DNA from: a virus
Reading direction: 5' to 3' (one strand)
Virus record (IMG/VR): IMGVR_UViG_3300009103_000142
Location: 1 to 25,505 of that record
Length of the DNA: 25,505 bases
Shown in pieces: positions 4,441-21,534 of this stretch. The first letter of the stretch is position 1; each line of letters starts with the position of its first letter. The notes below the pieces were generated by a model. The model was not told the DNA's origin. It worked only from the letters and a program-made list of their open reading frames with translations, and made no database searches. Both the position numbers and the translations under genes were made by a program.

Positions 4441-6667
4441 AACTGTAATCCTCTCCAATATCGAGGTCTACCCCGACTGGTTGTCCAGGTATACTACAGC
4501 CTCGATCTTTTTGTGTTAATTCCGCCATCTTTTTAGCTACTATGTCTACACTCTCATCCATTACTTCTAGTACTAAAGAATCGTGCACAAGTGCAATTAT
4601 TTTAGCATCAATAGAATTTTGTTTAATCCATTGATTTAACTCAATTCCAGCCAGAAGATTAATGTCAGAAGCAACAGATTGAATAAGAAAATTAATCCCA
4701 CTACGAACTTCATGTGAGGCAACCCCCTTATCGCTGCTAAAAACATTAGGGAGACGACGCTTACGCCCAAATATGGAGTATATATATCCATAACCCTCAA
4801 TTTCCTCCTTTGATTTTGCTAACCAAGTCTTCAACTTTGAAAATGTTTCAAAATACTTTGCAATCGTATCTTTAGCATCTTGAATGGTGAAGGGTTTTCC
4901 ACTATCTTTAGAAACTGTTTCGGATACCTTAGCCGGTCCTGAGCCATACATTATTCCGAATGTAATAGCTTTGGCGGCTTGTCGTTGAGTAGCCGCTTTA
5001 TCTTTAATTTCAGATACTTCATAAGGCAATCCAAATACCATTTTGGCAACTGTGGAGTGTAAGTCTCCTCCACTTTTAAATACATTTTGAAGATTTTTAT
5101 CTTTACTAAGAATAGCTGCAACATATACCTCAGCTGTAGCTAAATCTTGCTGTAAGATTTTATAACCAGGCTTTGCTTTAATACAACCTTTTACTGCCGC
5201 GTTGTCTCTCGGTAATTGTTGCATATTAATCTTCCCACTACTAGAAAGCCTGCCAGAAGTAGTGGAAGTGAGATTAAAATATGTTCTAAGACGCCCATCT
5301 TTATCTAACTCCGGTATAATCTTATCCAAGTAAGTATTTTTAATCTTGGATTTTTGTCTAATATCAAGAATAATTCCAGGGATTGGATGTTCTTCCGCAA
5401 GTTGTTTTAGGACTTCAGCATCCGTAGAAGCTGCACCAGTGCCAGTAAGTTTACCAGTGGGAGTAAGATTAAGATAATCAAATAGAAGTATTCTAAGTTG
5501 TTGCGTACTATTAGGGTTAAAGATTTTACCCTGTTCTTCTTCAAATTTATGTACTTCTTTATATGAATAAAGTGTTTCTTTATCTGCTTCAATTTCTTCC
5601 TCCATTAAGTGCTGAACTTTACTTAATCTTTCAGCATCAAAAGGTACTCCGTTTTCCTCCACATCTTTTAAGAATAACATTCCAGGAAGCATTAACTCTC
5701 TATATACTTTAGTGAGTTGAACACTGCTTAGAACCTTCTTACTAAACATTTGATATAATTCATATGTAACTGCTGTATCAATAGCAGCATACTCATACAT
5801 AATATCAAATGGGATAAGGTCATAAGTAAAATCCCCTTTTAATACTTTATGTTCCTTACAATATTGTGTTTTAAAATCATCGAGAGCTTTATCATAGTCT
5901 CCATAATCTGTGTATTTCATAGCTAATTGTTTTAAGCCGTGTGAACCTTGTGTTTCATCTAATACATAGTGCATTAACATCGTATCTGAAACTTTAGGGA
6001 AATAAAAGCCAAAATGATACTCAAGCATCTTCAAGTCAAATTTAGCATTATGAAATACAATCATTTTAGAGGAGAAAATGTCCTGCAACAGCTTTTCAGT
6101 TCTTTCTCCAATACACTCAGTGGATATGTAGACACCTTGTTCATTTTTATGTGTAAGGCTAATACCCAGTACGTAACCATCTCTTGGGTATAAAGCTGTT
6201 GTTTCCGTATCGCACGCCACAAACTTAATCGTCTCATCGCTAAGTATCGATTCAAGATATTCATTAGCTCTCTCCTCTTCAATAATACCCTCAAAATCCC
6301 CTGTAACTGTAGGTGGCTTCTCCCCCGCTACATATCCATGTAACTTTTCTACTGCTCTTTCAAATGACGGTTTAGCGTCAGGTTTGAAACTAAGCATAGC
6401 AGGATTAATCATTGGAATAAATTTTTCATTAACCAAGTGTCCTGCAAATTCTGTAACTGAACCTACTCCAGCAATAAACTTAGAGGCTTCTGAACCAATA
6501 AGTATAACGTATTCGTAAGAGTCAGAATCAAACTCTAAATCTACATCTCTTTTTAGTAGTTTCTTTATCTTTTTAGAAGATAAATGATAATGGTCAAAAT
6601 CAAAATCAAAATACTTTCTATAATTAACTCCACTTGGAGCTTTATCAACTATTGCTATCTCTGCCAT
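4403..6667 (-). CDS. Family A DNA polymerase with 3'-5' exonuclease (T5-like)
   Basis: 754 residues. The N-terminal ~120 residues are unassigned. The exonuclease domain follows, with ExoI CDTETT (D153, E155), ExoII HNAKFDLKML (D211) and ExoIII YAAIDT (D297). Polymerase motif A is QQDLATAEVY (D508, E513), the DLxTAE variant of T5 polymerase rather than DYSQIE. Motif B is RQAAKAITFGIMYG (R562, K566, F570, Y574), with Phe at the position matching E. coli F762. Motif C is VHDSLV (H695, D696), with Ser where most family A enzymes have Glu. No 5'-nuclease domain is present. The start overlaps the primase end by 23 nt. This is the replicative polymerase. Confidence 0.96.
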   Translation of the reverse strand: MAEIAIVDKAPSGVNYRKYFDFDFDHYHLSSKKIKKLLKRDVDLEFDSDSYEYVILIGSEASKFIAGVGSVTEFAGHLVNEKFIPMINPAMLSFKPDAKPSFERAVEKLHGYVAGEKPPTVTGDFEGIIEEERANEYLESILSDETIKFVACDTETTALYPRDGYVLGISLTHKNEQGVYISTECIGERTEKLLQDIFSSKMIVFHNAKFDLKMLEYHFGFYFPKVSDTMLMHYVLDETQGSHGLKQLAMKYTDYGDYDKALDDFKTQYCKEHKVLKGDFTYDLIPFDIMYEYAAIDTAVTYELYQMFSKKVLSSVQLTKVYRELMLPGMLFLKDVEENGVPFDAERLSKVQHLMEEEIEADKETLYSYKEVHKFEEEQGKIFNPNSTQQLRILLFDYLNLTPTGKLTGTGAASTDAEVLKQLAEEHPIPGIILDIRQKSKIKNTYLDKIIPELDKDGRLRTYFNLTSTTSGRLSSSGKINMQQLPRDNAAVKGCIKAKPGYKILQQDLATAEVYVAAILSKDKNLQNVFKSGGDLHSTVAKMVFGLPYEVSEIKDKAATQRQAAKAITFGIMYGSGPAKVSETVSKDSGKPFTIQDAKDTIAKYFETFSKLKTWLAKSKEEIEGYGYIYSIFGRKRRLPNVFSSDKGVASHEVRSGINFLIQSVASDINLLAGIELNQWIKQNSIDAKIIALVHDSLVLEVMDESVDIVAKKMAELTQKDRGCSIPGQPVGVDLDIGEDYSFGKFEKQYSEFL

Positions 6668-7496
6668 ATAGGTTTCCTTTTATATGTTTTATGTCTTCTA
6701 AAGACAGTTCCCCTGGATCTAACCCATCAGGTAATTCCAGAGCTGTATCATCATTAATAATAAATTTCTCACTTAATAATCTTTGAGCAACTTTAGTAGC
6801 CTTTCGACCTGCTTCATCTGCATCAAACATAGTATAAAGTGTATGTACTCCTTGTAATCTTAAAGTCTCTATCTTATCTAATTGAATATTATTAGCTCCT
6901 AATATTGCTACTGCATTTGTTAAACCTTTATCAATAAGATTTAGTGCATCAAATATTCCTTCTACTAAAATAGCGGTTCCCTCTATAGGAGTTACTATAG
7001 AAGGGAAGAGAGGAAGTTCTGCACCCGAAGGTTTAATCATATATTTAGGGTGTGCGTTACTGTTAATATATCTACCAATAAAAGCTCTAATTTTACCTGT
7101 AATATCAGGTAATGGAAAAACTATTCTTCCATCAAAATTTTTATGAGTAAAAGCCTTATATTCTGCTAAAGTTCTCTTATCTATATCTCTGAAATGTCTA
7201 GTAAAAGGAACAGAACCATTAGGTATAGCTAAGCCAGTAGAATTAGCTTTGATAGTAGATATTTTATCTTGTAGTTGTCTTACTCTTAAATCTTGCCAAT
7301 TTCTATCTATATTAAAGAACTTAAATACATTACCTTTAAATCCACAAGAAAAACAATGGAAAGCCCCTTCTTGCTGGTCTATATGCATTGAAGGGTTATT
7401 ATCCTCATGTTCAGGATTTAAACAGCTTACAACGTAATCCTGCCCTTTAGGAGTAAAAGGTATATTATGTTTATTTAAAATCTCTTCTACATTCAC
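6645..7496 (-). CDS. DnaG-type DNA primase, short form
   Basis: 283 residues. The N-terminal CHC2 zinc finger is visible (C25, H30, C48, C51). A TOPRIM domain follows, with ILVEGIFDAL (E179) and the metal-binding MFDADEAG (D225, D227). Bacterial DnaG is about 580 residues; the C-terminal helicase-binding domain is missing here, as in some phage primases. The gene overlaps the DnaB-type helicase gene by 4 nt upstream and the polymerase gene by 23 nt downstream. This supports coordinated synthesis of a helicase-primase-polymerase replisome. Confidence 0.95.
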   Translation of the reverse strand: MNVEEILNKHNIPFTPKGQDYVVSCLNPEHEDNNPSMHIDQQEGAFHCFSCGFKGNVFKFFNIDRNWQDLRVRQLQDKISTIKANSTGLAIPNGSVPFTRHFRDIDKRTLAEYKAFTHKNFDGRIVFPLPDITGKIRAFIGRYINSNAHPKYMIKPSGAELPLFPSIVTPIEGTAILVEGIFDALNLIDKGLTNAVAILGANNIQLDKIETLRLQGVHTLYTMFDADEAGRKATKVAQRLLSEKFIINDDTALELPDGLDPGELSLEDIKHIKGNLYGRDSNS

Positions 7497-8866
7497 CAGG
7501 GTAAGTCTCCATCTTCAGCTTTAGGTTTTTTCTTCTTTCCTACATCTTTAACTTCTTCTTTTTCAGAAGGTTTCATTACATTCTGTGGTCCAAGTTTTAA
7601 ACTTTCCCAATTCATAGTAGAAGTAAACTCTAAATCCGGACCACTTCTAACTTTAGTAGAAGTAAATGTAATAGCTTCATCTTCCTTACTATGTGCATCA
7701 ATAAGAAATGCAGAATCAGGACTATCAAGAAGCCCTTTAGCAAATCTTGTTTGACCACCTTCATCAATCTGATAAGGTGATATCATAGCTAAATCATATT
7801 TTCTAGCAAACTCTTTTAACTTTTTACTTGCAAATATCTGAGACTGCCAATCATATAAATCTTTTCCAATTCCTGTTTCAATCTGGTTTACGTAATCAAC
7901 AACTACTAAACCTAGGTTGTCTCCAAATTGGGCTTTTGCTTTTTGAAGTTGTAAATCAATACTTGTTAAAGATAGAGACCTATCATCAACAATAATTATT
8001 TGATTATCTTCTTTTAAACTACACTCTGTTACTAATTTCTTTTCAAAATGTAGAGGGTCTCTTTTTTCTAAAAATTCTTCATAAATTGACTCACTACTTT
8101 GGAACATTTCAGCTCTTAGTTTTGCTAAGTCATTTAATTCGTAAGGTTCTAATCTATTCTTTCTAATATTAGCATAAGGCACTCCAGATAGAATACTACT
8201 TATACGTTGGAAAGTTTCTAGTGCTGTCATTTCAATTGTAAAATAAATAGCAGTCTTACCCATACTATACTGATTAGCAACCATATTAGCACTTACTAGA
8301 GATTTACCAGAACCACGTTTGCCTCCTAGCATTATTAGTTCTTCTCTATAAGCACCTCCGACTTTACTATCAAAGTCATTATTAATTCCAAGAGATATAC
8401 AAGCATGGTCATCCACGCCTTCTTCCTGGAAAATCATAAGATTACTCATATTTGCTACAGATTCATCTGTATGTGTCTTTTCATCTAGTTTTAGAACTAT
8501 TTCAGAAAGACCTTCCTTTACTTCTAGAGTATCTTTTACTGTTATTTTATCTATGTATGTATCAATTAATTTTAAAGCTTCATTTTGAGTATACTGATCC
8601 GTCAAAGCATCTATCGCTAAGTCTAAATCAACCTCTGGAATCTCAAGAAGTTTAATGGCGGCTAAGTCTTTCTCAGTCTTAAGGTCTCTAGTAACTAATT
8701 CTAGTTCTTCGAAACTAGGAATACAGTTTTCTTTATTATAGAACCTATGAATACTGGAATAAAGAGAACTATAAGAATCATCAAAAAATTCTTTCTTAAT
8801 TCTAGCCCATCCATCGAGACTCTTGTCTTCCAATAACATATGAAGAACAATTGCTCCGATGTCCAT
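7493..8866 (-). CDS. Replicative DNA helicase, DnaB/RecA-like
   Basis: 457 residues. An N-terminal helical domain (about 1-140) precedes a RecA-type ATPase. Walker A is GGKRGSGKS (181-189), with a basic residue in the loop as in DnaB-like helicases, and Walker B is LVVVDYVNQI (D324). Later segments (KELARKYDLAM-like, QIDEGGQTRF) match the DnaB core. The C-terminal ~30 residues are Lys/Glu-rich and probably disordered. This is the 5'-3' replicative helicase. It overlaps the primase gene by 4 nt and the upstream 99-residue gene by 1 nt. Confidence 0.93.
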   Translation of the reverse strand: MDIGAIVLHMLLEDKSLDGWARIKKEFFDDSYSSLYSSIHRFYNKENCIPSFEELELVTRDLKTEKDLAAIKLLEIPEVDLDLAIDALTDQYTQNEALKLIDTYIDKITVKDTLEVKEGLSEIVLKLDEKTHTDESVANMSNLMIFQEEGVDDHACISLGINNDFDSKVGGAYREELIMLGGKRGSGKSLVSANMVANQYSMGKTAIYFTIEMTALETFQRISSILSGVPYANIRKNRLEPYELNDLAKLRAEMFQSSESIYEEFLEKRDPLHFEKKLVTECSLKEDNQIIIVDDRSLSLTSIDLQLQKAKAQFGDNLGLVVVDYVNQIETGIGKDLYDWQSQIFASKKLKEFARKYDLAMISPYQIDEGGQTRFAKGLLDSPDSAFLIDAHSKEDEAITFTSTKVRSGPDLEFTSTMNWESLKLGPQNVMKPSEKEEVKDVGKKKKPKAEDGDLPW

Positions 8867-14613: not shown

Positions 14614-14793
14614 TTATTTTTCATATGTGCGTACAATTCTACCACATTCATCTAGTTGTTCACATACTCCATTCATACAAAATTCTTTAATATAAGAGTC
14701 CTTTTTTAGACAAATAATAAGGTCTTCAGTTTCATAACTAAAATGAGCACATCCAGATATAACTAAAAAAGATAGAAGGACTAAAAACTTCAT
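14614..14793 (-). CDS. Small outer-membrane lipoprotein
   Basis: 59 residues from ATG at 14793, which overlaps the upstream stop as ATGA and has AGGAG upstream; the open frame extends further back without support. The signal peptide MKFLVLLSFLVISGC ends in a lipobox with acylated Cys15. The mature part is short, with four further cysteines (LIICLK, FCMNGVC, DEC) that could form disulfides in the periplasm. It directly follows the holin-like gene, so it could be an outer-membrane spanin. T5 also encodes a small lipoprotein (Llp) that blocks its receptor, so superinfection exclusion is an alternative. Neither is shown. Confidence 0.75.
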   Translation of the reverse strand: MKFLVLLSFLVISGCAHFSYETEDLIICLKKDSYIKEFCMNGVCEQLDECGRIVRTYEK

Positions 14794-15227
14794 CTTTTCA
14801 TTGCTCCTGCTCCGTAATAAAAGCCAATAATATTCATAATTGCTACAGGTAGCCATTCAGGAGTTACATAGCCTTCTAATTGTACATATTTAGTCACTGT
14901 ATTAGTGAAATCAAACCATAAAAATTTCCAGCCTTCTGTAACTTGAATAGGTACATTAGTTACTTCTTGCATCATGGGAGCCATAAATACAATTCCAAGC
15001 CCGCCAATAAGAGCAAGAAGAGCAATAAGCCTGCGAATGTAGTTACCTCCATCGGTATTATCTCGTTGTGCGGCATTATTGATACCCTCCTCTATTTGTA
15101 AGTTTCTAGCTATTAACATTTTTTGTTCTGCTGCTTTATCTGCCATACGTTGTGCAGCAATTTTCATAAGTCCTCCTAGTACGGTGGACCCCAACATTGA
15201 TACGGCTTCAATTGGTAGGCCTAACAT
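14790..15227 (-). CDS. Putative holin, GTA-type 3TM holin-like
   Basis: 145 residues. An amphipathic N-terminal segment (MLGLPIEAVSMLGSTVLGGLM) is followed by a charged helix (AAQRMADKAAEQKMLIARN), then GGNYIRRLIALLALIGGLGIVF as a clear membrane helix (about 62-85). A C-terminal hydrophobic segment (LPVAIMNIIGFYYGAGAM, 125-143) is a second. This order matches the 3TM holin family first described in alphaproteobacterial gene-transfer agents, where a conserved R-R precedes the main helix. Followed by a lipoprotein gene, it suggests a lysis pair, though no endolysin is seen here. Confidence 0.6.
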   Translation of the reverse strand: MLGLPIEAVSMLGSTVLGGLMKIAAQRMADKAAEQKMLIARNLQIEEGINNAAQRDNTDGGNYIRRLIALLALIGGLGIVFMAPMMQEVTNVPIQVTEGWKFLWFDFTNTVTKYVQLEGYVTPEWLPVAIMNIIGFYYGAGAMKR

Positions 15228-16086: not shown

Positions 16087-16113
16087 ATAAAAAACCCCAC
16101 ACGAGGTGGGGTT
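16087..16113 (-). terminator. Intrinsic terminator after the small membrane protein gene
   Basis: AACCCCAC / GTGGGGTT stem (16093-16113) followed by TTTTTT on the minus strand, 24 nt after the upstream stop codon. Confidence 0.93.
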
Positions 16114-16136: not shown

Positions 16137-16358
16137 TTATTTACGATTAAAGATGGCGTAAATGACAGCAACAGCGGCTAAACCAACTAGACCTTGAGAG
16201 CCAAGACCAGCTACGATGCCTGTAATATTTCCAACTACGTCGCCACCAACGAAAGGAACTACTGAACCAAAGATAACCTGCAATACAATTGCTAAAGCAA
16301 TAAGCGCAATACCAGTTTCAGTACCAGCTTTCATCCAACCATTAATTTTTTCTAACAT
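16137..16358 (-). CDS. Small two-span membrane protein, single-gene unit
   Basis: 73 residues. A short amphipathic start (MLEKINGWMKAGTETG) leads into two hydrophobic segments, IALIALAIVLQVIFGSVVPFV and a Gly/Ala-rich second (LGSQGLVGLAAVAVIYAIF), joined by a GGDVVGNITG loop. It has its own strong promoter, AAGGAG ribosome-binding site and terminator, so high expression is likely. Small glycine-rich two-span proteins can be holins or virion membrane proteins; neither is shown by sequence. Confidence 0.8.
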   Translation of the reverse strand: MLEKINGWMKAGTETGIALIALAIVLQVIFGSVVPFVGGDVVGNITGIVAGLGSQGLVGLAAVAVIYAIFNRK

Positions 16359-16456: not shown

Positions 16457-17296
16457 TTAAAACTTTACACGAAGACCTACTGTAGTAGTATCACTCTCTA
16501 CGCCAGCTTCGGTTTCAGCATTTTGATAATTAACATAAGCTGAAGTCCTGCTAGAGAAGTTGTGAACACCTTCTAGAGTATAAGTTTCTGTTGTATTTTC
16601 AACATCCTGAAAACCTGCCTTCAGTGTATTAGCGCCTACATCCATAGAACCTACAGTAGTGAAAGTATCAGTTTCTACACCAGCAGCAGTTTCTTCAGTT
16701 TCAAATACACCGCTAAGGTCTACACCTGAATAAGAGATATTAGCACCGATTAATGTATTCTTAACATTAGCAGCAGTTTCAGCATAAGCAGTATAAGCAT
16801 TGATAGGACCTAAGTTAAGACTAGCACCTAATTCATAAGCTTCATCAGTAGCTGAAGTTGGTATGTTAGAAGCGCTTAAAGTGATTCCTCCAACCTTAGC
16901 AGTTGCTAAGATAGAGTTATCAATATCGCCCGAGTTGTTCACGTCAAATCCTGGACCTTCAAAAATATCGATAGTAGCATCACCTAACTGCTTTTGAACA
17001 CCAGCTTGGTCACCGACAGCTACAGAACCGATTGGGCCCGCTAGCCCTACATAAGCCTTACGCTGAGTAGCAGTAGCAGCAATATCCATAGAAAGTTCAC
17101 CATAAGCAGACATACCATTACCTAAGTCTTCACCAAAAGTGAAACCTACATAAGTGTCTTCAGATGAGATAGCTTCAGTTCCATTATCCCACTTCTTCTC
17201 TACAGAACCAAATACAGATGTATCAGCTGCAGCTTCTTCAGCACAGCCAGTTAAAACGATTGCAGCTAAAGCTGCAGCAATAATTGTCTTTTTCAT
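16457..17296 (-). CDS. Phage-encoded outer-membrane porin with lipoprotein-type signal
   Basis: 279 residues. The signal peptide MKKTIIAAALAAIVLTGC carries a lipobox (L-T-G-C18), then a beta-barrel of the gram-negative porin type. Visible family marks are SVFGSVEKKWDNG, the EDTYVGFTFGEDLGNGMSAYGELS strand pair, QRKAYVGLAGPIGSVAVGDQ, alternating hydrophobic strands throughout, and a C-terminal strand ending in Phe (TVGLRVKF), the sorting signal read by the BAM machinery. About 260 mature residues suit a small barrel. A lipidated N-terminus on a porin is unusual. The gene is a single unit with its own promoter and codons biased to GCA/GCT. It may change the infected cell's outer-membrane permeability or receptors. 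Fold confident, purpose inferred. Confidence 0.85.
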   Translation of the reverse strand: MKKTIIAAALAAIVLTGCAEEAAADTSVFGSVEKKWDNGTEAISSEDTYVGFTFGEDLGNGMSAYGELSMDIAATATQRKAYVGLAGPIGSVAVGDQAGVQKQLGDATIDIFEGPGFDVNNSGDIDNSILATAKVGGITLSASNIPTSATDEAYELGASLNLGPINAYTAYAETAANVKNTLIGANISYSGVDLSGVFETEETAAGVETDTFTTVGSMDVGANTLKAGFQDVENTTETYTLEGVHNFSSRTSAYVNYQNAETEAGVESDTTTVGLRVKF

Positions 17297-17343
17297 TTAT
17301 TTCTCCTTAAAAAATTTTTAGACTTTTCAAATTTTGAAATATT

Positions 17344-17372
17344 ATTATACACTTATATACCAAAAAAGTCAA
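17344..17372 (-). promoter_or_regulatory. Promoter for the porin gene
   Basis: TTGACT (17372-17367), 17 bp, TATAAT (17349-17344). The upstream tract is ACAAATAGTAC, slightly divergent from the family. Leader about 40 nt. Confidence 0.9.
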
Positions 17373-17400: not shown

Positions 17401-17417
17401 TGTATCAAAATGATACA
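17401..17417. promoter_or_regulatory. Palindrome upstream of the porin promoter
   Basis: TGTATCA-AAA-TGATACA is a perfect 7-bp inverted repeat with a 3-bp centre, about 28 bp upstream of the porin -35. Its position suits an activator or repressor site. It lacks a following T-run, so it is not a terminator. No second copy was noticed. Confidence 0.4.
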
Positions 17418-17428
17418 GTACCTCCAAT

Positions 17429-17451
17429 AAAAAACCCCGCACAAGGCGGGG
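17429..17451 (-). terminator. Intrinsic terminator after the secreted-protein unit
   Basis: CCCCGC / GCGGGG stem (17435-17451) followed by TTTTTT on the minus strand. It isolates the porin unit from the genes before it. Confidence 0.93.
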
Positions 17452-17474
17452 CTAAACTATCCGTCCTGGAATGT

Positions 17475-17591
17475 TTAAGAAAGTAATTCCCAAAATACTA
17501 CAAATATAGTTAGTAATATTGCGAGAGTAGGAGGAACTATTAATAAAGTAGCTCCTAAACCTTCTAAATACTTTTTACTCCCAATAGCCAT
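17475..17591 (-). CDS. Small single-span membrane peptide
   Basis: 38 residues from ATG at 17591, overlapping the upstream gene by 17 nt. After MAIGSKKYLEGLG there is one continuous hydrophobic segment (ATLLIVPPTLAILLTIFVVF) and a short ELLS end. No ribosome-binding site is visible, so translation would depend on coupling. A terminator follows. The clean membrane-helix composition and placement support a real gene; function unknown. Confidence 0.5.
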   Translation of the reverse strand: MAIGSKKYLEGLGATLLIVPPTLAILLTIFVVFWELLS

Positions 17592-17799
17592 TTTGTTCAT
17601 TCCAAACTGAAACTGCTTCCTCCCATTCAGTAAAATATCCATTAGATTCAGCATCTGCTAATTCATCTGTATATTTAAATTCTGCATAAGGGTTTACATA
17701 GTTATCTGAAATACCATCAAAAGTACCATATAACTCATTCCAGTCTGTAGCGACTGCACTAAAGGAAACGACTAAAAGTGTCGCTAATAAAGTTTTCAT
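17575..17799 (-). CDS. Small secreted acidic protein
   Basis: 74 residues. A cleavable signal peptide (MKTLLATLLVVSFSAVA, likely cut after A-V-A) precedes an acidic, aromatic-rich mature part of about 57 residues (Tyr, Trp, Glu; FKYTDELADAESNGYFTEWEEA). No cysteine and no lipobox, so a soluble periplasmic protein is expected. It lies downstream of another exported protein gene in one unit. Not recognised. Confidence 0.75.
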   Translation of the reverse strand: MKTLLATLLVVSFSAVATDWNELYGTFDGISDNYVNPYAEFKYTDELADAESNGYFTEWEEAVSVWNEQNGYWE

Positions 17800-17850: not shown

Positions 17851-18177
17851 TTACTTAACTGTGCTATAAGGGGCAACGCCGTAGTAAGCAGGCGTATTCT
17901 CTGTACGAATATCAGTAGCACCGTTGAAACGGTTATTACTATCTGCATCCATATCAGCTTCCATATTAGAATGAGCCTTACCAGAAGCATTGATAGTCAT
18001 ACTGAAGTTACCTTCTGCATCCATATCTCCTTTTCCAGCACCACGGCCACGTCCGTCAAATGCGCTATCTACATTACCATTGCCGTATCCGGACTGGTTA
18101 TCATCACCAGAACCAAAGAAAGCTGAAGCTGAAGTTGCTGTTGCTACCATAATCATTGCGATAATCATCTTTTTCAT
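17851..18177 (-). CDS. Exported Gly/Asn/Asp-rich protein, sulfur-globule-protein-like
   Basis: 108 residues. The signal peptide MKKMIIAMIMVATATSASA is followed by a low-complexity mature part rich in Gly, Asn, Asp and Met (GSGDDNQSGYGNGN, GRGRGAGKGDMDAEGNFSM, NMEADMDADSNNRFNG) and an end AYYGVAPYSTVK. This composition and the YYGxAPY ending resemble exported proteins annotated as sulfur-globule (CV1-type) proteins in marine and sulfur-oxidising bacteria. The similarity is compositional and could mislead. The gene heads its own unit, behind a promoter and a leader hairpin. Confidence 0.72.
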   Translation of the reverse strand: MKKMIIAMIMVATATSASAFFGSGDDNQSGYGNGNVDSAFDGRGRGAGKGDMDAEGNFSMTINASGKAHSNMEADMDADSNNRFNGATDIRTENTPAYYGVAPYSTVK

Positions 18178-18815: not shown

Positions 18816-18994
18816 CCTGGGTATTTAATATTCTTTTTAACCTGCTCTTCTAGAAGGTTTATTAGTTCTTCATTAGTTTGGATTGTAAAAGTATCTATAA
18901 GTTGTGCCAAAGCATTAATAGCATGGGGTAAATTATCTTCTCTATCACTTAGCCAAGCTCTAACTAAGCCGCAAGCTCTGTCTGAGTCATTCAT
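18812..18994 (-). CDS. Hypothetical protein following thyX
   Basis: 60 residues from ATG at 18994, which overlaps the thyX stop (ATGA) and has GGAG eight bases upstream; an earlier ATG at 19018 lacks a comparable site. The protein is helical (ACGLVRAWLSDREDNLPHAINALAQLIDTF...ELINLLEEQVKKN). Not recognised. Confidence 0.7.
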   Translation of the reverse strand: MNDSDRACGLVRAWLSDREDNLPHAINALAQLIDTFTIQTNEELINLLEEQVKKNIKYPG

Positions 18995-19743
18995 TCTAAG
19001 TTCTCCATGAATTCCCATTGGTTATTTATAAAGTATCTCGCCAATTGATGCAAATATGGAAATTGTTCTTGTACTTGTAATTCCATACATTTAGCATATT
19101 CTTGGGTTTCATGCTGTGCATGACTTTCTGTTCTAAGGAATATAACATTCATCAAACTGCGAAAGTTTAGCGTCCAAATTACTTCCGTATACTCAGATAC
19201 CGGTTGTAGACCTCTGACCAATTCTCTTGCGCGAGCTCTCCACGGATCTCTACCATCCCTAGTATCTGGCGGTAGCGCTCCTTCTTCTCTTGCTTTTTCA
19301 ATTCTGCTATAGGCGGATTCAAGTAACTCCTCCCGAATGTGTTGTATCGAATTGAGTGCAGTTTCATATTGAATTAAATCCTGTTTACTAAAAATAGGGA
19401 AACCTTCTACTTCCAGAAGGTCTTCTTTAGGTGTATAATAGGGAGTAGGCTTTCCACGATATCTTCTACTCATTTCATTCCAACTAGACATTCTATGTTT
19501 AACAAGTTGTCTAGCTACAAAAATGGGCATACGTAGTCGCCATCTAAAATACAGAGTTTCAAAAGGAGTGCCATGCGAGCCAAAGAGTAGAGCTTTTAGT
19601 AGATTTTTATCTCTATCATCTAACTCTTGACCTTCTACTCTCCTATCAGATGCTGATAACCTGGCAGTATCGCAAATGCGCCCTTCATTACCCCAAGTAT
19701 CTTCTAGAATTACTAGGCTAGTTCCATCATTCAAAGGATCCAC
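18991..19743 (-). CDS. thyX: FAD-dependent thymidylate synthase
   Basis: 250 residues. The ThyX signature RHRxxSxNExSxR appears as KHRMSSWNEMSRR (82-94), with Lys for the first Arg; the rest, including S87, N89, E90, S92 and R94, is intact. Other family marks are HGTPFE (57-62) and FRSLMNVIFLRTESHAQHE near residue 200. It makes dTMP from dUMP with methylene-tetrahydrofolate and FAD, supplying dTTP for phage DNA. It overlaps the DUF3310 gene by 17 nt, a common phage pairing. Confidence 0.95.
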   Translation of the reverse strand: MDPLNDGTSLVILEDTWGNEGRICDTARLSASDRRVEGQELDDRDKNLLKALLFGSHGTPFETLYFRWRLRMPIFVARQLVKHRMSSWNEMSRRYRGKPTPYYTPKEDLLEVEGFPIFSKQDLIQYETALNSIQHIREELLESAYSRIEKAREEGALPPDTRDGRDPWRARARELVRGLQPVSEYTEVIWTLNFRSLMNVIFLRTESHAQHETQEYAKCMELQVQEQFPYLHQLARYFINNQWEFMENLE

Positions 19744-20881: not shown

Positions 20882-21313
20882 CTATGCGGCTGCCTCTAAT
20901 AGCCGATTAGAGGTATCTACGGTTATTTTTCGAGGTCGCAGCTCCTCTGGAATCTCCACTTCCAAACTAATAGTAAGAATTCCCTGATTCAGAGATGCAC
21001 TAGCTACGTGCATTTGCTCAGATAGCTTGAATTCTCTAGTAAAAGCTCGAGACCCAATTCCTTTATATATAAAGTCTCTATCAGTGTCTTCAACTTTAGA
21101 ACCTTTGATAGTTAAAGTACTTTGATGTTCTTCAATATCAATTTGTTCCTCTGTCCAACCTGCTAAAGCTACTTCGATTTGATACTCAGTATCAGATTTC
21201 TTTTCAATATTATAAGGTGGATATTTCTGACTAGCAGGTAATCTACTTGCTTGATTAAAAAAGTTATCAAAGCCAATCATCATATCTTGTAATGGAAAGT
21301 TAGGGTGTGTCAT
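20882..21313 (-). CDS. Small heat-shock protein (Hsp20/IbpA family)
   Basis: 143 residues from ATG at 21313, chosen because AAGGAG precedes it; the open frame extends upstream to 21358 without support. The alpha-crystallin domain runs from about YPPYNIEKKSDTEYQIEVALAGW to ASLNQGILTISLEVEIPEE, with the typical A-x-L-x-x-GIL-x-I-x-L signature, and ends with the I-x-V-type RKITV tail. It would hold unfolding proteins during infection. Hsp20 genes are known in cyanophages and some other marine phages. Downstream lies a long structured 3' region. Confidence 0.92.
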   Translation of the reverse strand: MTHPNFPLQDMMIGFDNFFNQASRLPASQKYPPYNIEKKSDTEYQIEVALAGWTEEQIDIEEHQSTLTIKGSKVEDTDRDFIYKGIGSRAFTREFKLSEQMHVASASLNQGILTISLEVEIPEELRPRKITVDTSNRLLEAAA

Positions 21314-21327
21314 AAGTTTTCTCCTTT

Positions 21328-21534
21328 TCAGTAAGAATCGTACGAATGCAAATGCCATTCGTTAGGGTTTAAATCGAACATATGATTAGCAGAAACCACT
21401 TTCATATAAGCTTCTGCCTCACTACGCTCTCTAAAAAGCATAAAGAACTCGTAAGCTTCTCCATGCTGTAAATCTTTTGCCCAAATATGATAACCCATAT
21501 TATTCTTCTGAACTTCAAAGTCCCATTTATCCAT
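21328..21534 (-). CDS. Small hypothetical protein before hsp20
   Basis: About 68 residues (MDKWDFEVQKNNMGYHIWAKDL...), aromatic and acidic, not recognised. Three in-frame starts compete. ATG at 21543 lies between the -10 and the predicted start point, so it is not in the message. ATG at 21534 would be about 5 nt from the 5' end (leaderless). ATG at 21498 has a weak AGAAG upstream. The stop lies 15 nt before hsp20. Confidence 0.65.
   Translation of the reverse strand: MDKWDFEVQKNNMGYHIWAKDLQHGEAYEFFMLFRERSEAEAYMKVVSANHMFDLNPNEWHLHSYDSY

Follow-up and report, generated by a model that had tools for sequence, protein, structure and literature searches.

The window, by which we mean the whole 25.5 kb of DNA that was analysed, is an IMG/VR virus record and a fragment of a T5-like phage. 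Its T5-like character, as claimed in the original prediction, is borne out by the replication genes, which include a DNA polymerase with 47% identity over 99% of its length to those of T5-like Vibrio phages (e.g., pVp-1 and KIT04), helicases, an SbcD-like gene and a two-gene NAD ligase; ThyX is also encoded. On one strand and within 5.8 kb, the window carries thyX, a porin gene and a permuted tmRNA gene in that order, with thyX 1.7 kb or less from the first gene of the porin cassette (Table 1). The porin open reading frame begins with ATG, preceded by AAGGAG, and genes for two small secreted proteins lie upstream of it. Matches of the 108-aa-type secreted protein to sulphur globule protein PF17228 scored 21.7 and 14.5 bits, below the cut-off of 26.7. 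Farther upstream, a small heat-shock-like protein, of the Hsp20 type as judged by eye, is encoded at 20882-21358 (minus strand) and is conserved in 23 related phage loci.

Table 1. Features of the porin locus in window coordinates
Feature	Position	Strand	Basis or comparison
Permuted (two-piece) tmRNA gene, tag ANDNVYSLAA	13999..14289	-	RF04321 87 bits, ARAGORN
Nearest clear terminator-like hairpin downstream of the porin, following the 73-aa gene	16093..16113	-	
73-aa hydrophobic membrane protein, own strong promoter 16434-16406, no family match	16137..16358	-	72-75% identical in L014-L017
Porin gene, 279 aa, predicted 16-strand outer-membrane barrel	16457..17296	-	Porin_4 82 bits; AlphaFold2 model; Z about 27
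C-terminal strand, TTVGLRVKF, terminal-Phe sorting signal of outer-membrane barrels	16460..16486	-	sequence
Constriction loop L3, residues 99-123; TIDIFEGPGFDVNNS identical in both phages	16928..17002	-	model, segment identities
Lipobox cysteine C18, LTG-C-A, sole Cys of the porin	17243..17245	-	LTA-C-S in L002
Signal peptide, residues 1-17, MKKTIIAAALAAIVLTG, if signal peptidase II cuts	17246..17296	-	sequence, model
Ribosome-binding site AAGGAG	17303..17308	-	sequence
Porin promoter TTGACT-17-TATAAT	17344..17372	-	same promoter in L002
Perfect 17-bp palindrome TGTATCA-TTT-TGATACA, operator-like	17401..17417	-	22-base run identical in L002
Terminator-like hairpin between porin unit and upstream genes	17433..17453	-	
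74-aa secreted protein, NEQNGYW-type motif at end	17575..17799	-	short counterpart in L002
108-aa secreted protein	17851..18177	-	sub-threshold PF17228; counterpart at the corresponding place in L002 and, less closely related, in L015
ThyX thymidylate synthase, upstream of the porin	18991..19743	-	Pfam Thy1 122.8 bits

The original prediction of a phage-encoded outer-membrane porin is upheld by family, fold, phage context and an orthologue in a second phage. The checks it had named included a search against porin families and a predicted barrel of 12-18 strands. The first returned a Pfam Porin_4 match of 82 bits (E 8.7e-23, residues 9-263) against a curated cut-off of 27 bits, while PHROG gave weak signal-peptide matches only. 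For the second, AlphaFold2 with 26 aligned porins produced a complete barrel of 16 strands (pLDDT 83.9, pTM 0.76), with one helix at residues 100-108, the expected place of constriction loop 3, and another at residues 2-17 in the signal peptide. Run with the two phage porin sequences alone, it gave no usable fold (pLDDT 27.6). As the 26-sequence alignment behind the fold consists mostly of Porin_4 proteins, the model confirms the homology and is not independent proof of it. A Foldseek search with the model placed Vibrio OmpU at the top (E 1.3e-15), and VIA-align gave Z scores of 27.3 to OmpT and Omp32 and 26.6 to PorB, with rmsd values of 1.8-2.2 over about 255 residues. The C-terminal Phe sorting signal was also read correctly, and this residue, F279, is an invariant column in the alignment of 26 porins.

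The window porin thus shares with the Porin_4 general porins (Neisseria PorB, Comamonas Omp32, Vibrio OmpU and OmpT) the family profile, the 16-strand fold, the loop-3 helix and the C-terminal Phe, but differs from them in being phage-encoded, in its length of 279 residues, very short loops, pI of 4.05 and strict lipobox, and in a conserved palindrome at its promoter. Surface loops L5, L6, L7 and L8 measure 5, 5, 3 and 4 residues, respectively. The mature protein contains 11 K+R and 38 D+E, and seven comparators have pI values of 5.6-9.5; from this strong acidity we infer that the phage pore is probably cation-selective. Loop 1, loop 5 and the core of loop 3 are identical between the two phage orthologues, a conservation above that of most strands.

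The orthologue, at locus L002 on a separate IMG/VR contig, is 64% identical to the window porin and matches Porin_4 at 54 bits. Gene order there is as in the window: the 108-aa-type secreted protein, the short secreted protein, the porin, a holin-like protein and an overlapping lipoprotein. In the window, the last two genes (14614-14856 and 14790-15227, minus strand) encode a holin-like membrane protein and a small lipoprotein (ISGCAHF) and overlap out of frame; the pair is possibly a lysis cassette, or its lipoprotein possibly Llp-like. On the L002 contig, the DNA polymerase match at 5268-8616 is split between residues 1-572 and residues 572-754, with about 1.1 kb between the two parts, where an intron, a homing endonuclease or a similar element has presumably inserted.

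Since porin genes originate in bacteria, a bacterial gene in a misassembled or contaminated contig had to be considered as the source of the window porin. Phage genes, however, flank the porin on both sides, an independent contig has the same cassette order, and in the tree the two porins form a private clade that has 100/100 support, sits on a long stem and is separate from the porins of other viral contigs. Codon comparison of the pair (pN 0.22, pS 0.71, dN/dS about 0.12 with dS saturated) indicates that the phage porin is under purifying selection. This low nonsynonymous change, together with the synteny, makes contamination so unlikely that we regard it as negligible. The position of the two porins in a clade of their own on a long stem also suggests that they were captured separately from other viral porins.

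A lipoprotein signal had been claimed for the porin, and the strict lipobox LTGC-A is present as described and recurs as LTAC-S in the orthologue, each protein having a single Cys that lies within it. By the strict consensus [LVI][ASTVI][GAS]C, judged by eye with a charged N-terminus and a hydrophobic stretch before it, the motif occurs in 2 of 63 porins gathered from bacterial genomes and viral contigs, the two phage orthologues, and in none of the other 61; a loose pattern matches 6 of the 63, four of them outside the strict consensus. Ala or Ser after the lipobox Cys suits outer-membrane sorting. The lipid anchor itself is less firmly established than the motif. In both orthologues an AxA signal-peptidase-I motif ends at A24 (AAA|D and VKA|E), the usual porin cleavage position, and the signal peptide could be an ordinary one cut after A24, leaving a porin that is no lipoprotein. 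Such a reading would change the anchor and nothing about the role of the pore. The A24 site, the palindrome upstream of the promoter and the very short surface loops were not part of the original prediction. We consider it the less probable of the two, though a serious one; against it stand the strict lipobox and sole Cys, kept in both orthologues and missing from 61 other porins, and a following residue that fits outer-membrane sorting. The A24 site in both orthologues keeps lipidation of C18 at probable and no higher.

A lipoprotein-type signal in a T5-like background recalls Llp of T5, a small receptor-blocking lipoprotein that acts on FhuA; Llp is not a barrel. A phage-carried outer-membrane porin is itself familiar from Lc of the lambdoid phage PA-2, an OmpC-type, non-lipidated porin of a temperate enterobacterial phage, for which receptor replacement or masking against superinfection has reportedly been proposed. 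The window differs from PA-2 in having a Porin_4 porin in a T5-like phage, while Lc and related phage porins resemble the window porin in having their own promoter (for IpeX, see PMC12197685). By analogy, the window porin could replace or mask a host receptor porin, so that superinfection is prevented and progeny are not trapped on debris. Its very short extracellular loops would deprive phages of binding sites, and an effect of phage porin transcripts on host OmpC is known (IpeX, PMC12197685). Masking would not, however, need the strong conservation that is seen in the pore-constricting loop, and we consider surface remodelling an unlikely role for this protein.

The dedicated strong promoter that was originally predicted for the porin is real, a TTGACT-17-TATAAT element reading from 17372 to 17344. 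The window contains 12 near-consensus promoters (11 or 12 of 12 matches), this one included, all on the coding (minus) strand and all with 17-bp spacers, compared to 1.47 expected in dinucleotide shuffles of the window. About 28 nt upstream of the -35 hexamer, in the window and in L002, lies the perfect palindrome, which occurs once in the window and, among 157 loci compared, at the two orthologous porins only. A further viral contig (L159) carries the palindrome at the end of a helicase open reading frame, without a porin, and this occurrence was taken as chance. The palindrome is centred at about -72 from the inferred transcription start, the spacing used by class I activators, and it is a candidate operator for a host or phage regulator.

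A third possible role lies in lysis timing or in membrane stress: the pore, along with the holin-like protein and lipoprotein encoded nearby, would disturb the outer membrane late in infection. These two overlapping genes lie 1.2 kb downstream of the porin, and likewise in L002. A comparable role has been proposed for the CsgG outer-membrane pore of phage Melnitz, whose gene likewise lies close to thyX and a two-piece tmRNA (PMC9004378). Against this, a separate promoter and a terminator stand between the porin and the holin-like cassette, and general porins are not toxic in themselves; we judge a function in lysis timing to be quite improbable.

A Porin_4 match was found in one of 38 related phage records, the contig of L002; many of the records are fragments. 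With its own promoter, patchy presence among relatives and host-type function, the porin has the marks of a cargo (moron or auxiliary) gene. In L015-L017 (3300003086, listed as Guaymas Basin in PMC5186765), this locus encodes a 291-aa secreted protein that ends in TVTF and has no Pfam match, beside a related secreted protein and the 73-aa membrane protein. This protein (L015:6458-7333) has relatives in two other viral contigs (L097:2321-3184 and L098:8001-8867), and together they form a family of secreted proteins of about 290 residues with a C-terminal Phe. No relative was found in 50,697 phage records, and no homology to Porin_4 was detectable (no Pfam match; 18% in profile comparison). The family is probably a second phage-borne outer-membrane barrel family, and with this other barrel-like gene in the place of the porin, the locus seems to have received a barrel gene on two occasions, a different one each time.

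The host of the phage was sought by a bacterial profile search, in which the best match reached 45 bits, and no host was assigned. A SUP05 sulphur oxidiser, prompted by the sulphur globule match and by relatives from Guaymas Basin plumes, was set aside for lack of any confirmation. The L015 tmRNA matches the betaproteobacterial model.

Porins in phage genomes were expected to be rare, which holds for phage records and does not hold for environmental viral contigs. A search of 50,697 phage records with the window porin gave no match at E 0.01, and four porin and barrel queries against the same records yielded a single match, weak and partial. When the porin or the two-row alignment was used for pattern scans, L002 was the only hit in viral contigs, alongside two distant bacterial porins. 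One scan with a mixed porin alignment, by comparison, found 26 environmental viral contigs with bacterial-like Porin_4 genes, in 12 protein groups at 50% identity. Where checked, these viral porins are flanked by phage genes (ThyX, DNA ligase, exonuclease and a weak tape-measure match), and phage proteins annotated as porins are already present in BFVD.

At 10 of the 26 viral loci, representing 5 of the 12 groups, a permuted tmRNA identified by Rfam and ARAGORN immediately precedes the porin on its own strand, at a distance of about 55-630 nt (L099, L100, L101, L103, L104, L105, L108, L116, L122 and L124). No tmRNA was found in the sequence covered at 69 bacterial porin loci, a comparison in which flanks are shorter, a few loci overlap and the true hosts may be unsampled. 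Among related T5-like loci, only L015-L017, those with the other barrel, carry a tmRNA. In addition, five other viral porin loci (L102, L106, L107, L112 and L117) have thyX no more than about 4 kb from the porin, compared to 1 of 79 T5-like loci. The sober explanation for the adjacency of tmRNA and porin is a shared insertion hotspot beside RNA genes.

In bacteria, CsgG forms a lipoprotein barrel. In phage Melnitz, csgGF is located downstream of thyX and ssrA (PMC9004378), and CsgG of Melnitz and the pelagimyophages resembles the window porin as a phage outer-membrane pore near thyX and a two-piece tmRNA, while belonging to another pore family and a T4-like phage type (PMC9004378). A two-piece tmRNA and an outer-membrane pore, be it Porin_4, the L015-type barrel or CsgG, might form a recurrent functional unit of aquatic phages that was assembled several times independently, represented here by a lipid-anchored porin whose operator is recognised by a regulator of the host or the phage. 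We offer this as a tentative and rather doubtful proposal.

Phage-borne porins are already known, and a viral porin beside an ammonium transporter has been reported: in viruses of oxygen-minimum zones, OmpL adjoins glnK-amtB (PMC8115048). Like the window porin, viral OmpL is a predicted barrel from an environmental virus with its own promoter and a proposed uptake role, but it is of Bacteroidetes origin and adjoins a transporter gene (PMC8115048); no transporter gene adjoins the porin in the window.

Taken together, the product of the gene is a complete general-diffusion porin of Porin_4 type, which this T5-like phage carries in a promoter unit of its own. The original prediction had suggested altered nutrient uptake, replacement of a host porin or the hiding of a receptor; we lean toward the view that the most likely effect is to make the outer membrane of the infected cell more permeable to small solutes. 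What gets into a Gram-negative cell depends on its porins, which phages commonly use as receptors, and a pore by itself is also compatible with roles in exclusion or lysis timing; it is the conserved open pore with its conserved constriction that favours permeability over masking or exclusion and over lysis timing. In the mechanism we propose, a regulator binding the palindrome would control expression of the porin, and the preprotein would be exported through Sec, probably lipidated at C18 and then cut by signal peptidase II. The BAM complex would fold it into a pore predicted to be trimeric and conducting, with the N-terminal lipid in the inner leaflet of the outer membrane. Such a pore would serve in nutrient supply, an auxiliary role, by admitting more small solutes across the outer membrane.

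A T5-like phage with its own acidic, short-looped and probably lipid-anchored porin, and with a conserved operator-like site at its promoter, suggests that outer-membrane permeability is actively controlled in infection. Since porins recur beside permuted tmRNA genes in environmental phages that are unrelated to one another, it can be tested directly why phages carry outer-membrane pores.
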